From assembly GCA_009784335.1 (NCBI GenBank), contig WRBX01000037.1, forward strand, positions 1 to 6,689: a stretch of DNA of 6,689 bases, in the 5' to 3' direction. The notes below the pieces were generated by a model. That model saw nothing but the letters and a program-made list of their open reading frames with translations, was not told where the DNA came from and did not search any database. This DNA comes from Oscillospiraceae bacterium. GTDB taxonomy: Bacteria > Bacillota_A > Clostridia > Monoglobales > WRBX01. The translations under genes and the position numbers were made by a program. How positions within the stretch are numbered: the first letter of the stretch is position 1; the number at the start of each line of letters is the position of its first letter. Of the stretch, positions 1-4,217 are shown piece after piece.

Positions 1-780
1 ATTCCAAAGGTCATAGCATTTTTTGAAATTATGATCCTTAATCATCAGATTCGTTCTTTTTATCGGCGATTTAACGGGAATGCATTTGCGCATTGCAAGA
101 TAAAATTCACTTTGCTTATATCCATTAACCATGCGCCTAATATGTTCAATGTTTTCAAAAACTTTTGCAGCATCGGCATTATCGCCAATATAAGAATTCC
201 CTTGCCTGATTTTTAAAGTTAGATTATATGCTATTTTTTCATCATTATCTTTGTCATTAAACTCAGAATCTACTTTTAGAGTTGAGTGGAATATTTTGCC
301 GATTGCATCATAGAGCGCATCATATCTGCGAATCAAGAATTCATCTATCTTGTTGATTAAGGTTATAACAAAGCGATTTTCATAAATATCAAAACTATCT
401 TCATTATAAATATTCATGATTTTTTTAGGGATAACAAAGTTGCCTGCATCAACTCTATCTATTAAATGAGTATGCGTTGATAGATGGCGAACGGCCTCGG
501 CGCCGGTATTTTTTGCAAGGTCAATAGGAACAACAACTTCTTCGCGCTCCACAAACCTGCGCGGGTTTCTGAGGATATTATCGAGGGCGGGCAATGTCTC
601 TAAAATATTGTTTACCCATGATTCATCTATAGTTTTAATATCTAAAACATTTTTTTGCTCATAAAATTTAACCCCTGAATCCATCACTTTCATGAAATAT
701 TCATAAAAATGGTCGCCGGTAAGGGTTTTAATCATTCGTGTTCTGAATTTTTTGTAAAGCCTCTTGCTATAATTCTTCAT
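1..780 (-). CDS. DUF2357-family McrC-like protein, 3' end beyond the window
   Basis: This ORF runs 260 codons without a stop from an ATG at 780 to the left edge, so only the N-terminal part is present. Its product is predicted to be the effector or specificity partner of the McrB-type motor upstream. Recognisable DUF2357 stretches are NPRRFVEREEVVVPIDLA (about residues 72-89), a following VRHLSTHTHLID, IYENRFVITLINKIDEFL near the middle, and KRTNLMIKDHNFKKCYDLW just before the edge. In this family, proteins commonly continue into a C-terminal PD-(D/E)XK nuclease domain; that part cannot be seen here. The start is supported by AAAAGAG at 788-794, seven bases upstream and inside the end of the EAL gene, with only 3 nt between the genes, so translation is probably coupled. 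Family assignment is by pattern recognition; nuclease activity is inference. Confidence 0.82.
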   Translation of the reverse strand, partial: MKNYSKRLYKKFRTRMIKTLTGDHFYEYFMKVMDSGVKFYEQKNVLDIKTIDESWVNNILETLPALDNILRNPRRFVEREEVVVPIDLAKNTGAEAVRHLSTHTHLIDRVDAGNFVIPKKIMNIYNEDSFDIYENRFVITLINKIDEFLIRRYDALYDAIGKIFHSTLKVDSEFNDKDNDEKIAYNLTLKIRQGNSYIGDNADAAKVFENIEHIRRMVNGYKQSEFYLAMRKCIPVKSPIKRTNLMIKDHNFKKCYDLWN

Positions 781-783
781 AAT

Positions 784-1539
784 CTAACTCTTTTGAACGG
801 TTTTAACTATCCTGGGGCTGAGCATCTCTCTGCTGTTTATCAACCTGCCAAATATAGGCCCTTGCATCTTTTCGCAAGCCAATGTCATTAGCAATTCTTT
901 TTGCTCTTCTTTTTCAATATCTTCGGCAATGATTTCTATATTCTGCTTTTTTGCTTGCTTGATTATTGAAGTGACATTTTCTGCCGCTTTTTGGTCGGCT
1001 GATATTCGCTCTGTCAAGCTTTTTGCCAGCTTAATTATATCTACCGGAATAGTATCTAACCTAGATAAAGGAAGAAGACTGGCGCTATAGTTATCAATTG
1101 CGATTTTGAACCCTGCCTTTTTTAACTCATATATTCTTTCTACAATGGCATCTGATTTGGCACCAAAGAAATTCTCATGCACTTCTAGGCATATTTTGCC
1201 CGGTGCGCACTGCGATTCTTCTGCAATTTTCAACAAGTCGGCGGCGATGCTCTTTTTCCGAAGCTGCCCGGCCAGAAGATCCATCGAAATATATTCGAAA
1301 GCGATTTTCTTCGCTTCCATTTTGTTAATGCACCCGCACACTTCATCAAACAGCCACTTGCCAAGAGAGAGGCCGACTCCTGCTTTTTCAGCCACAGGAA
1401 AAAAAAGGTTCTGCGGCAAGCTCCCCAAGCCTTTTTCAACAAGTTTCACGCAAGTTTCATAACCGATAACCTTAGAAAAACTGGGCTCCATTATCGGCCA
1501 ATAATACATTTTTAACTCAGGTTCTTTTTTATTATCCAT
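784..1539 (-). CDS. degenerate EAL-domain protein, probably catalytically inactive
   Basis: The 251-residue protein is almost entirely one EAL domain, the fold of cyclic-di-GMP phosphodiesterases, with no membrane segment or signal peptide. The scaffold is clear: YETC (27-30) in the EAL-motif position, FFPVAEKAG (46-54), ISMD (84-87), LEVHEN (118-123), IAIDN (146-150), VDIIKLA (166-172), IIAED (203-207) and QGPIFGR (226-232). Some metal and catalytic positions are kept: E28, E119, D149, K170, E206 and Q226. Others are lost. The usual DDFGTG loop reads DNYSAS, the Asn of the NxSxxxL motif is Asp87, and the Asp of the KxD motif is Ala172. Hydrolysis is therefore unlikely; a nucleotide-sensing or protein-binding role is an inference. 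GAGGAG at 1549-1554, nine bases upstream, fixes the start. It sits in the operon between the McrB-type motor (15-nt gap) and the DUF2357 gene (3-nt gap). Confidence 0.85.
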   Translation of the reverse strand: MDNKKEPELKMYYWPIMEPSFSKVIGYETCVKLVEKGLGSLPQNLFFPVAEKAGVGLSLGKWLFDEVCGCINKMEAKKIAFEYISMDLLAGQLRKKSIAADLLKIAEESQCAPGKICLEVHENFFGAKSDAIVERIYELKKAGFKIAIDNYSASLLPLSRLDTIPVDIIKLAKSLTERISADQKAAENVTSIIKQAKKQNIEIIAEDIEKEEQKELLMTLACEKMQGPIFGRLINSREMLSPRIVKTVQKS

Positions 1540-1554
1540 CTTTGATTTCTCCTC

Positions 1555-3090
1555 TTACGAAGCCATTTTAATCAGTCTTTCAAGAAATGCTTTAGCATAT
1601 GGCATATTATCTCTGCCGAACAATTTTTCGAGATAAGAAATAAGTTTTTTCATGCTGTCTTTCAGCAGCATTAAATTCAAGCCTTCAAATTTTTTCAGAA
1701 CTTTATATGTGAACATATAATCCAAGCCGCCGATTTCAGTTCCGCCGCAGGCAACATAAACCGGGATAAAATCTCGCATTTGCTTTACAATTCGATTACC
1801 GAACGATAGGCGAAAATTCTCGATTACAAAATAGTCCAAAGCTTCCAATTTTTCAAAAATTTCATCTGAAACCGGGTGCGTTTTTTTCGCTTCTGCAAAA
1901 AGCTTTTGCAAATATGCAGATTCAATTTGCATAGGCTCGCTATCTTCGCATTCGAATTCTGCTATTTTTGTATCAATCTGAATAGGAATTGCGCGATCAT
2001 AAACCTTATCTGTTATTGAAAAAGTAGAATCATCGTTGTTAGCTGTGCCCACAAACCAAAGATTTGTTGGCAATTTCATTCTTCCGTTTATAACATTTTT
2101 TGGGTCGCTGGGCCATGAATCCGGGACAACATCTATAATCCACTCATCTGAATTAGGCAATTCCAAAACGGATAGGATTTCGGCGAAATAATATTCCACT
2201 CGCGCGAGATTCATCTCGTCTAAAACCACAAAACCTATATCATCTCTATATGTAAACTCGTAAATTCCTTCTAAAAACTCGGATTCGTTGAATCTCTTTG
2301 TAAATTCATTGAGATATCCGACAAGCTCGGTTCTATCCCTCCAAGACGGCTGAACGGCACAAACGCAAGAATCGCGTTTTAAGAATTTGCCCCAAGAATA
2401 AGGCAATGAAGTTTTTCCTGTGCCTGATATTCCTTCCAAAATTATTAATCGCGAAGATGCCATGCCTGCCACAAACGCCATTACAAGTTCGCGCGGATAA
2501 TACAAATTCATTTTTTTGCAAGCGAAATTTCGATATCTCTCCACCAATTCACTGAGCGTGAATTTTTGCGGTGTGGTGATTTTAAACGGGTTTTCTTCGT
2601 ATTTCTTATCAACATCAATGAGCCGAACAAATCTGCTGATGCCGCCGTTAGGGTCGATTGCTTCTTCCTCGCCGTCGCCTTCTTCGCCCTCTTCTTCGCC
2701 CGGCTTTAAGCCCAACTGAGAAACTTTCATAGCCATGATTTTATTTTTCTCATCTAATAAAGCGGCAACCTCGTGGTTCAGCCTGGTTATCTCTTTCATC
2801 AATTCTTCTTCTTCCACCATTCGTTTTCTAAACGCAAAATATTTTTTGAGAGCTTTTAAGATGAACCAAACCAAAAGTGCAAACAGGGCCACAATCATGA
2901 TAATAGAAAGAACCCCCAATATCCACGCAGTTGTATCAAATTGGGGGAAATAAATCTTTATTATGCCAACATATGTACTAAATGATGCACCCGCATTCCA
3001 AAAAGCATTGCCGAGAGTTTGAAAAAACTCAACTACATTCTTCAAAATCAGCACCATTAGTTCATAAAAAAATTCGAAGAATAAGCTCAT
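1555..3090 (-). CDS. membrane-anchored McrB-type GTPase/AAA+ ATPase
   Basis: A 511-residue motor of the McrB branch of AAA+ proteins, which hydrolyse GTP and drive a McrC/DUF2357 nuclease partner. Walker A is GISGTGKTS (220-228), Walker B is VVLDEMNLA (288-296), and the McrB hallmark NxxD is N351-D354 in VGTANNDDS. WRDRTELVGYLNEFTKRF (250-267) and an arginine-finger candidate R366 also match the family. The N-terminus is unusual. It has a hydrophobic stretch at about 10-30, a strong membrane helix at about 55-80, a charged coiled-coil-like segment at about 86-125 and a Glu-rich linker (131-143), all before the motor. No DNA-binding domain of the E. coli McrB type is apparent. The N-terminal segment probably places the motor on the cytoplasmic face of the membrane. 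A modest AGGT at 3098-3101 precedes the start; the gap to the signal peptidase gene is 18 nt. The family call is firm; target and nucleotide preference are inferred. Confidence 0.93.
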   Translation of the reverse strand: MSLFFEFFYELMVLILKNVVEFFQTLGNAFWNAGASFSTYVGIIKIYFPQFDTTAWILGVLSIIMIVALFALLVWFILKALKKYFAFRKRMVEEEELMKEITRLNHEVAALLDEKNKIMAMKVSQLGLKPGEEEGEEGDGEEEAIDPNGGISRFVRLIDVDKKYEENPFKITTPQKFTLSELVERYRNFACKKMNLYYPRELVMAFVAGMASSRLIILEGISGTGKTSLPYSWGKFLKRDSCVCAVQPSWRDRTELVGYLNEFTKRFNESEFLEGIYEFTYRDDIGFVVLDEMNLARVEYYFAEILSVLELPNSDEWIIDVVPDSWPSDPKNVINGRMKLPTNLWFVGTANNDDSTFSITDKVYDRAIPIQIDTKIAEFECEDSEPMQIESAYLQKLFAEAKKTHPVSDEIFEKLEALDYFVIENFRLSFGNRIVKQMRDFIPVYVACGGTEIGGLDYMFTYKVLKKFEGLNLMLLKDSMKKLISYLEKLFGRDNMPYAKAFLERLIKMAS

Positions 3091-3108
3091 TTTATGTACC
3101 TACATTCA

Positions 3109-3795
3109 TCACTCAGAGTTTTCGACAGTCGCAACTTCCTCGGGTTCTGCCGCAACAGGCGGAGGGGCAACTTCGACCGGCGTGGTCGGCGTGGCCACCG
3201 GTTTTACTTCGCCTTCCACGATTGCAAGCCTTCTATAAGCGCCAATTGCTTTTGTCAGTTTATATATTTGCCAAAGGAAGAACAAAAGAAGAGGAATCAC
3301 TAAGCAGTAGAAGAATCCCCATTTTGATTGAAGGAAGGTCATCACAGTGCCTCCGCCTACAATCTTAGTTCCGCTATACAAGCCGATTACATCATTTGCG
3401 ATTTTTCTGTCAGTATCGACAACCGAGTTGTTATCACCCTTTGTGGTGAAGCTTGGTATGCCGGAATCATTATGTACTTGGGTAATTCTGTGAGTGTTGA
3501 AAGCCCTTTGGCCGTCAATAATATCCCAAAATGTTATGATTTGCCCGGTGGTTAGCGTTAGCGTCTGCTCGGGAGAAAGATTTTTTACAATAATCAAATC
3601 TCCTGCTTGGAAATTATCCTTAGCGTCGCCTTTCATAGAATCGGTCTCTACCGTGAGAACACTATAGCCGAAAATGTTAGGCATGCCAGCATCTCTTTGA
3701 GAAAGTGTCAGAAAAATAAAAACTGCCATAACAACAATTATAAGCCCGACTATTATCCTACCGGTGATTGCAAAGCTTTTTTTCATAGTTTTCAT
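3109..3795 (-). CDS. SipW/ER-type signal peptidase I with long C-terminal tail
   Basis: A membrane serine protease that removes signal peptides outside the cytoplasmic membrane. It belongs to the SipW/ER/archaeal branch, in which histidine replaces the general-base lysine. Visible are an N-terminal membrane helix (about 13-31), the catalytic serine S53 in ETDSMKGD, the expected histidine H102 in NTHRITQV, and the TKGDNNSVVD box (118-127). A second membrane helix lies at about 160-177, followed by a Pro/Val/Ala/Glu-rich tail (about 197-228). The usual catalytic set appears complete. Two starts are possible. The ATG at 3795 has the AAGAAGGA ribosome site directly against it, whereas the ATG at 3786 (MKKSFAITG) is about nine bases from it and is the better start. 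This is the first gene of the operon. SipW enzymes often serve a nearby TasA/camelysin-like substrate, but none is visible in this window. Confidence 0.9.
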   Translation of the reverse strand: MKTMKKSFAITGRIIVGLIIVVMAVFIFLTLSQRDAGMPNIFGYSVLTVETDSMKGDAKDNFQAGDLIIVKNLSPEQTLTLTTGQIITFWDIIDGQRAFNTHRITQVHNDSGIPSFTTKGDNNSVVDTDRKIANDVIGLYSGTKIVGGGTVMTFLQSKWGFFYCLVIPLLLFFLWQIYKLTKAIGAYRRLAIVEGEVKPVATPTTPVEVAPPPVAAEPEEVATVENSE

Positions 3796-3842: not shown

Positions 3843-3871
3843 ATTATTTCATAAGTGCAAAACCTTGTCAA
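3843..3871 (-). promoter_or_regulatory. extended -10 promoter for the signal peptidase/McrB-type operon
   Basis: Read on the minus strand there is a perfect TTGACA (3871-3866), a 17-bp spacer and AATAAT (3848-3843, five of six matches). TG lies one base before the -10, giving an extended -10. Transcription would start near 3836, leaving a leader of roughly 50 nt before the preferred signal peptidase start. No operator-like palindrome overlaps it, so it looks constitutive, though that is inference. Confidence 0.75.
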
Positions 3872-3943: not shown

Positions 3944-3971
3944 AAAAAAGCTCCTCAATTTCTTGAAAAGC
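3944..3971 (-). terminator. possible weak Rho-independent terminator
   Basis: On the minus strand GCTTTTC (3971-3965) can pair with GAGGAGC (3956-3950), including two G-U pairs, around an 8-base loop, followed by six T residues (3949-3944). It ends just ahead of the operon promoter. It may be the original terminator of the tRNA-His gene, from before a fragment was inserted at 4006-4139; that history is inference. The stem is short, so confidence is moderate at best. Confidence 0.4.
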
Positions 3972-3982
3972 TTTCCGGTGTG

Positions 3983-4005
3983 TGGGGTGAACGATGGGAA
4001 TTGAA
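3983..4005 (-). repeat. partial tRNA-His 3' end, att-like direct repeat
   Basis: These 23 bases are identical to 4140-4162, the last 23 bases of the tRNA-His gene from the T-loop through CCA. Identity stops abruptly on both sides: G at 3982 against A at 4139, and A at 4006 against C at 4163. The flanks do not complete a tRNA. Repeats covering the T-arm to CCA are typical attachment cores left by tyrosine recombinases at tRNA genes. The copy lies 157 bp from the intact one, on the side facing the McrB-type operon. No integrase is visible, so the att reading is an inference. Confidence 0.7.

Positions 4006-4139: not shown

Positions 4140-4217
<78 letters not shown>

Follow-up and report, generated by a model that had tools for sequence, protein, structure and literature searches.

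The four genes at the left end of a 6,689-nucleotide stretch of Oscillospiraceae DNA (hereafter the window) join an McrB-like motor and a DUF2357 protein with a signal peptidase and an EAL protein, and raise the question of whether a motor pair akin to a restriction system serves in defence here or at the cell surface. Judged from sequence comparisons, a part in building the cell surface is more likely for the system than one in fighting phages, because its relatives are situated among genes for exported surface proteins and second-messenger proteins and lack a recognisable DNA-cutting part. The four open reading frames (ORFs) are co-directional on the minus strand (3795-3109, 3090-1555, 1539-784 and 780-1), with intergenic gaps of 18, 15 and 3 nt and the last ORF open at the left edge. 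These coordinates agree with the arrangement reported in a first-pass annotation of this DNA. The features distinguished in and around the operon are:

3109..3795, minus strand: SipW-type signal peptidase (228 aa; TIGR02228 match)
1555..3090, minus strand: McrB-like AAA+ NTPase of the NxD (CoCoPALM-like) type (511 aa; profile, motif and hydropathy analysis)
784..1539, minus strand: stand-alone EAL protein with a degenerate active site (251 aa; PF00563)
1..780, minus strand: DUF2357 (McrC N-domain) protein, first 260 aa, truncated by the window edge (PF09823)
3843..3871, minus strand: promoter-like site 5' of the operon (TTGACA-17-AATAAT, 11/12 consensus matches, TG ahead of the -10)
3945..3976, minus strand: terminator-like hairpin between the operon and the tRNA
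4140..4216, minus strand: tRNA-His (gtg)
3983..4005, minus strand: att-like perfect 23-bp copy of the tRNA-His 3' end (second copy at 4140-4162)

A promoter-like site is thus found where a single strong promoter had been proposed, while its strength amounts to a pattern match, as five promoter-like sites occur in 701 bases compared to 1.9 ± 1.5 in shuffled sequences. Right of the tRNA-His gene, the plus strand encodes a GalU-like nucleotidyl transferase, an FMN reductase and, truncated at the right edge of the window, an HD protein which we take to be a dGTPase. Among the GalU matches listed, those with names belong mostly to Clostridia, with one labelled Hyphomonadaceae, and a clostridial origin of the window is accordingly probable. 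The G+C contents of these three genes are 45.1, 51.2 and 43.2 %, respectively, while those of the operon genes are 43.7 % (SipW), 38.5 % (AAA), 41.0 % (EAL) and 34.0 % (DUF2357), the last being the lowest. The copies of the 23-bp repeat start 157 bp apart, with none expected by chance, and look like attachment-site copies, yet the spacer between them is just 134 bp. The repeat of the tRNA-His 3' end is only a hint of mobility, and the proposed tRNA-proximal mobile defence locus is not borne out by it. There is no TasA-like gene within the window, where the tRNA lies upstream of the operon and the downstream side is beyond the edge; fibre genes of this locus, if any, would be located past that edge.

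The signal peptidase and the McrB/DUF2357 pair

The signal peptidase scores above the cut-off of TIGR02228 (66.0 bits; cut-off 51.85) and below that of NF046067, the equivalog model for SipW of Bacillus (92.2 bits; cut-off 190), and is therefore termed SipW-type rather than SipW proper. Hydropathy analysis places hydrophobic segments at residues 14-32 and 159-177. Searches of the AAA+ motor against Pfam yielded nothing above cut-off. A profile built from the motor and three relatives matched McrB of the solved structures 6hz4, 6ut6 and 7vsr over the AAA+ core (E 2.7e-5 to 6.1e-5), and the motor matched the PADLOC model PDC-M26A (E 2.2e-37). With the DUF2357 protein scoring above the PF09823 cut-off (36.6 bits; cut-off 23.3), the structure matches uphold the assignment of an McrBC-like pair.

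Loci around 47 full-length relatives of the motor were compared with 20 loci around ordinary McrB genes, which served as controls. The relatives were hand-picked from the best-scoring matches, belong nearly all to one class and in some cases derive from the same genome. Among them are the three seed loci (L001-L003), which together with the window had supplied the profiles. Loci with other AAA types (L108, L149-L154), short or fragmentary ones (L155-L157) and two that merely extend L001 and L003 (L158-L159) were left out. Many stretches stop at contig ends.

The motor has a hydrophobic segment at residues 60-78, followed by a conserved charged stretch ending in EKNKIMAM and by an AAA+ core in which the Walker A motif reads GISGTGKT, Walker B LDEMN and the signature motif NND. 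Its signature, GTANNDDST, is of the NxD type and does not match the classical McrB NxxD with which the motor had first been credited. The NxD signature occurs in 48/48 motors (47 relatives and the window), as does a Walker A of GISGTGKTS or GVSGTGKTS. The proposed membrane anchoring fares better, with a hydrophobic segment in the first 130 aa of 47/47 relatives, against 2/20 control McrB proteins with such a segment anywhere in the motor.

These features recall CoCoPALM, a clade of CoCoNuT-like NTPases whose members all carry NxD and are fusions with a membrane and coiled-coil part resembling FtsB (Bell et al. 2024, eLife, PMC11090510). The McrC homologue of this clade likewise has a coiled coil. 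CoCoPALM NTPases are associated with signal peptidases, and the few sentences on them in the main text tie them to pilus assembly and defer them to a later paper (PMC11090510). The window shares with this clade an NxD McrB-type NTPase with a predicted membrane helix, a putative McrC homologue and an adjacent signal peptidase, and appears to fit it as judged by the NxD signature, the hydrophobic segment, the DUF2357 domain and the signal peptidase. It differs in the degenerate EAL added between the two core genes, and SipW, TasA and camelysin are absent from the main text of the paper (PMC11090510). The name is carried by one paper in two versions, the other text matches being unrelated by title. 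Among the literature matches listed, no paper joins SipW/TasA loci with McrB/DUF2357; SipW, TasA and McrB all occur in the text of PMC3682982, which by its title is a functional-metagenomics method paper. The system, first presented as undescribed, is thus not wholly so: CoCoPALM is named in print, with its function left open there as far as the main text goes (PMC11090510).

The McrC DUF2357 domain is described as binding the McrB GTPase and stimulating it (PMC11090510). Pfam scanning at E 0.1 of 45 of the 46 DUF2357 partners of the relatives, the truncated partner of L002 being left out, detected DUF2357 in 27/45 and the PD-(D/E)XK family in 0/45, while single weak matches included the LAGLIDADG_WhiA model (0.024). 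Both DUF2357 and PDDEXK_7 were found in 10/10 partners tested from the 20 control McrB loci. An in-house narrow DUF2357 profile matched 4/20 controls, whereas Pfam found the domain in all ten tested. The DUF2357 proteins of the relatives range from 371 to 940 aa. Conservation is highest over roughly the first 260 aa, whereas the tails vary and contain many charged residues. As its own C-terminus lies beyond the window edge, the DUF2357 protein of the window is predicted from these relatives to be without a nuclease.

Gene neighbourhoods of the relatives

The DUF2357 gene adjoins the motor in 46/47 relative loci. A SipW-type peptidase is encoded directly upstream of the motor in 34/45 loci, and up to three genes upstream or four downstream in 45/46. 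Proteins with SipW-type signals occur up to seven genes upstream or eight downstream in 32/42 loci and EAL proteins nearby in 21/42, while SipW, SipW-type signal proteins and EAL proteins were each found in 0/20 control loci. When the seeds L001-L003 are removed, a hand count gives 43/44 (DUF2357), 42/43 (SipW nearby), 30/40 (signal proteins) and 20/40 (EAL). The ties of the pair to the peptidase and to EAL proteins, as initially proposed, both recur around the relatives, although the EAL gene accompanies the pair at about half of the loci only and in another position.

The SipW-type signal pattern, an in-house one, was found in 84/644 ORFs of the relative loci and 0/303 of the controls. A frequent gene order runs from an intact EAL, a degenerate EAL, a small protein and one to three fibre-like proteins to SipW, the motor and DUF2357, followed by fibre-like proteins and further SipW genes. 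Family scans covering 47 of the 84 fibre-like proteins gave matches to TIGR04088 (7/47 at E 0.1), TIGR04090 (BsaA; 1/47 at E 0.1) and camelysin (3/47 at E 0.01), and comparison by sequence with solved structures gave no match. A structural model of one of them (pLDDT 38) is too poor for a TasA-like fold to be judged. A WxEGxDxxC-like motif is present in the C-terminal part of fibre-like proteins of L001, L003 and other relatives (32/644 ORFs versus 0/303 in controls), and 22 of these 32 ORFs also bear the signal pattern. Furthermore, 20/47 relative loci contain an ORF of at least 850 aa without family assignment, many of them truncated at the end of the stretch. The large ORF in four other relative loci is, by eye, a pyruvate:ferredoxin oxidoreductase and is not part of the system.

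The EAL protein of the window matches PF00563 well above cut-off (161.6 bits; cut-off 31.3), but its active site is degenerate, with Asn replaced by Asp, the second Asp of the DD motif by Asn, and KLD/KID by KLA; the metal and catalytic positions are those which we presume for EAL domains. Besides itself, three relatives of this protein were found, two of them close. EAL proteins of the relative loci were sorted into intact and degenerate by an in-house motif pattern, and exactly one of each occurs in 15/21 EAL-bearing loci, one of the 21 (L141) having a weak, partial match. In a tree from which rows below 200 aa were dropped, including that of L141, 17 degenerate EALs of the relatives form one clade (support 96/89), while the window EAL and two metagenomic proteins form a separate one (support 100/100). 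These separate clades suggest that EAL proteins were recruited into such loci more than once. All 17 members of the former clade have one N-terminal hydrophobic segment, and a GGDEF domain was found in 3/3 members scanned. Among the intact EALs paired with degenerate ones, 13/15 carry two segments, the first close to the N-terminus and the second ~210-290 residues further on. The location between motor and DUF2357 genes is seen in the window and in 0/47 relatives. As two degenerate-EAL lineages occur in such loci, the reading of c-di-GMP, or the docking of another partner instead, would appear to belong to the system, and the relatives bear out the link to the membrane and to a second messenger that the first-pass annotation had made.

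Cell-surface export weighed against defence

The best explanation is probably a CoCoPALM-type core, that is, an McrBC-derived motor pair serving the export of cell-surface proteins rather than restriction. The surface-export role itself, which rests on the gene context of the relatives, can be put forward with considerable confidence. The defence role originally proposed would make the locus a membrane-anchored type IV restriction-like or abortive anti-phage system, with the peptidase and fibres as mere companions, which we consider improbable. The kinship of the motor and DUF2357 with McrB and McrC and the PDC-M26A match agree with such a role, and the class named in the title of the CoCoPALM paper points the same way (PMC11090510). 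Against it, the PD-(D/E)XK family is found in none of the 45 partners of the relatives but in all control partners tested, and surface-type genes recur beside the relatives and are absent beside the controls. PADLOC scanning of ORFs of 120-700 aa, motor and DUF2357 excluded, matched 43 defence families (E 1e-10 or better; e.g. PDC-S01, AbiE and AbiLi) among 115 neighbour proteins in nine of the 47 relative loci, but 187, including BREX and type I methyltransferase models, for 87 neighbour proteins in nine of the 20 control loci, both figures being counts of families and not of genes since PADLOC families overlap. The relatives thus carry some defence genes, but a resemblance to defence islands is much stronger in the controls. 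No relative was found on viral contigs in a scan with two short patterns. A DUF2357 protein without any nuclease domain, in a locus always accompanied by envelope-biogenesis genes, had been named in the first-pass annotation itself as counting against defence. With no PD-(D/E)XK family in the 45 partners of the relatives and with exported surface-type proteins as neighbours, the defence role does poorly on this test and is not supported.

A further alternative is that both roles hold in part, the McrB/DUF2357 pair being an NTPase sensor of surface damage or phage adsorption that alters the surface fibres. The membrane segment of the motor would suit such an envelope sensor, as would the EAL proteins near half of the relatives and the spacing of the two segments in most paired intact EALs, which is that of receptors with an outside sensor; no effector is seen among the neighbours besides the export genes, however, and we regard this switch as unlikely. 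The EAL gene of the window may also have slipped by chance into an ordinary CoCoPALM pair and have no role there. This would account for its position, which none of the 47 relatives shares, and for the finding of just two close relatives of the protein, but is hard to reconcile with the gaps of 15 and 3 nt around the gene and with the recurrence of EAL proteins near the system, both lineages of which are degenerate; such an insertion is very unlikely.

Within the surface-export explanation, the best reading is a c-di-GMP-linked, NTP-driven membrane machine which would control how TasA/BsaA-like surface fibres are exported or assembled. The AAA+ protein would assemble into a ring at the cytoplasmic side of the membrane, tethered there through its N-terminal helix, and onto this ring the DUF2357 protein would dock to stimulate NTP hydrolysis, as in McrC, with a charged tail in place of the nuclease in the relatives. 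The ring may act on or gate the SipW peptidase and its presumed TasA/BsaA-like substrates, so that surface fibres would be released or assembled only once the system is switched on. The degenerate EAL, by binding c-di-GMP or a partner, would be the switch; hydrolysis would be coupled to a step in which the SipW substrates are exported, processed or assembled, with the timing set by the degenerate EAL. These details of ring, gating and EAL switch are put forward tentatively. It is conceivable, though short of probable, that Gram-positives have here a novel kind of energy-driven machine for surface fibres. In it, a membrane-anchored McrBC-derived NTPase ring, activated by a DUF2357 protein that lacks a nuclease, would drive or gate the export and assembly of TasA/BsaA-like fibres in dependence on SipW. 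Degenerate EAL proteins would control this machine as c-di-GMP receptors and would have been recruited on two occasions or more, in the window through insertion between the core genes.

To our knowledge, the prevailing view of TasA-type fibres is that they assemble extracellularly and need no energy source. If loci for such fibres contain a recurring NTPase pair related to restriction systems, together with c-di-GMP proteins, the fibres would gain a motor or gate on the inside, and a branch so far classed with type IV restriction would turn out to have another function. The surface-fibre reading is a testable claim on CoCoPALM, the function of which is left open in the main text of PMC11090510.

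Several known systems share parts of this arrangement. McrBC type IV restriction systems (6hz4, 6ut6, 7vsr) have the AAA+ core and DUF2357 in common with the window, but the window motor has no DNA-reader domain that could be seen, NxD in place of NxxD and a membrane segment, and the DUF2357 partners of its relatives are without the PD-(D/E)XK family. LapD is made up of degenerate GGDEF and EAL domains, while the window EAL is stand-alone and lacks GGDEF. The idea common to both is that a degenerate EAL reads c-di-GMP and controls a surface adhesin, as described for LapD (PMC3032553, PMC3032545), and no family membership is claimed. A cell-division protein of the McrB family, PcdA of Staphylococcus aureus, has likewise left restriction for a role in cell structure, but its Walker A is described as degraded and it lacks an McrC partner (PMC10602043), whereas the window system keeps both Walker A and the partner. 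SipW-TasA of Bacillus and SipW-BsaA of Clostridium perfringens (PMC7395162) combine a SipW-type peptidase with SipW-dependent fibre proteins, as here, and in C. perfringens BsaA depends on SipW to be released and to polymerise. The operon described there, sipW-bsaABCRSD, is run by a two-component system and is without an AAA+ or DUF2357 gene (PMC7395162). The NorQD MoxR AAA+ complex (PMC13036017) resembles the proposed machine in that an AAA+ protein and a dedicated partner remodel a target, but that partner is a VWA protein and the AAA+ family is another one than that of the window motor.

Distribution and variants of the system

Protein searches returned at least 8000 relatives of the motor, a figure to be taken as a floor because every one of the 8000 scored candidates matched. 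Cultured bacteria with a relative include Bacilliculturomica massiliensis (L001) and Peloplasma aerotolerans. In the phylum of the L001 genome 41/299 genomes match, full-length only in that of L001 (900 bits) and at 129 bits or less in the other 40. Matches occur in 23/198 genomes of its order, again full-length only in that of L001, and in 3/60 genomes of its family, including one further full-length match and one as fragments. For L003, 25/43 genomes of the order match, 20 of them at more than 600 bits, as do 130/346 genomes of the class, other AAA types counted in. The system is therefore common around L003 and patchy around L001.

Two systems, L160 and L161, lie ~15 kb apart on the same contig of one genome. 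L160 is the sole locus of the 47 in which DUF2357 does not adjoin the motor, and its system may share the DUF2357 protein of L161. Two motors ~15 kb apart are likewise encoded in genomes G826, G597, G691 and G589. Another locus type (L108, L150 and L152) combines an AAA+ protein of 598-614 aa with a SipW-like protein of 334-348 aa. L108 and L150 also encode a short protein with a weak DUF2357 match, and L108 exported-looking proteins and, by eye, an ABC-type ATPase. In L149, L151, L153 and L154 the genes are arranged in tandem as motor, DUF2357 and motor, with at least one large protein encoded alongside.
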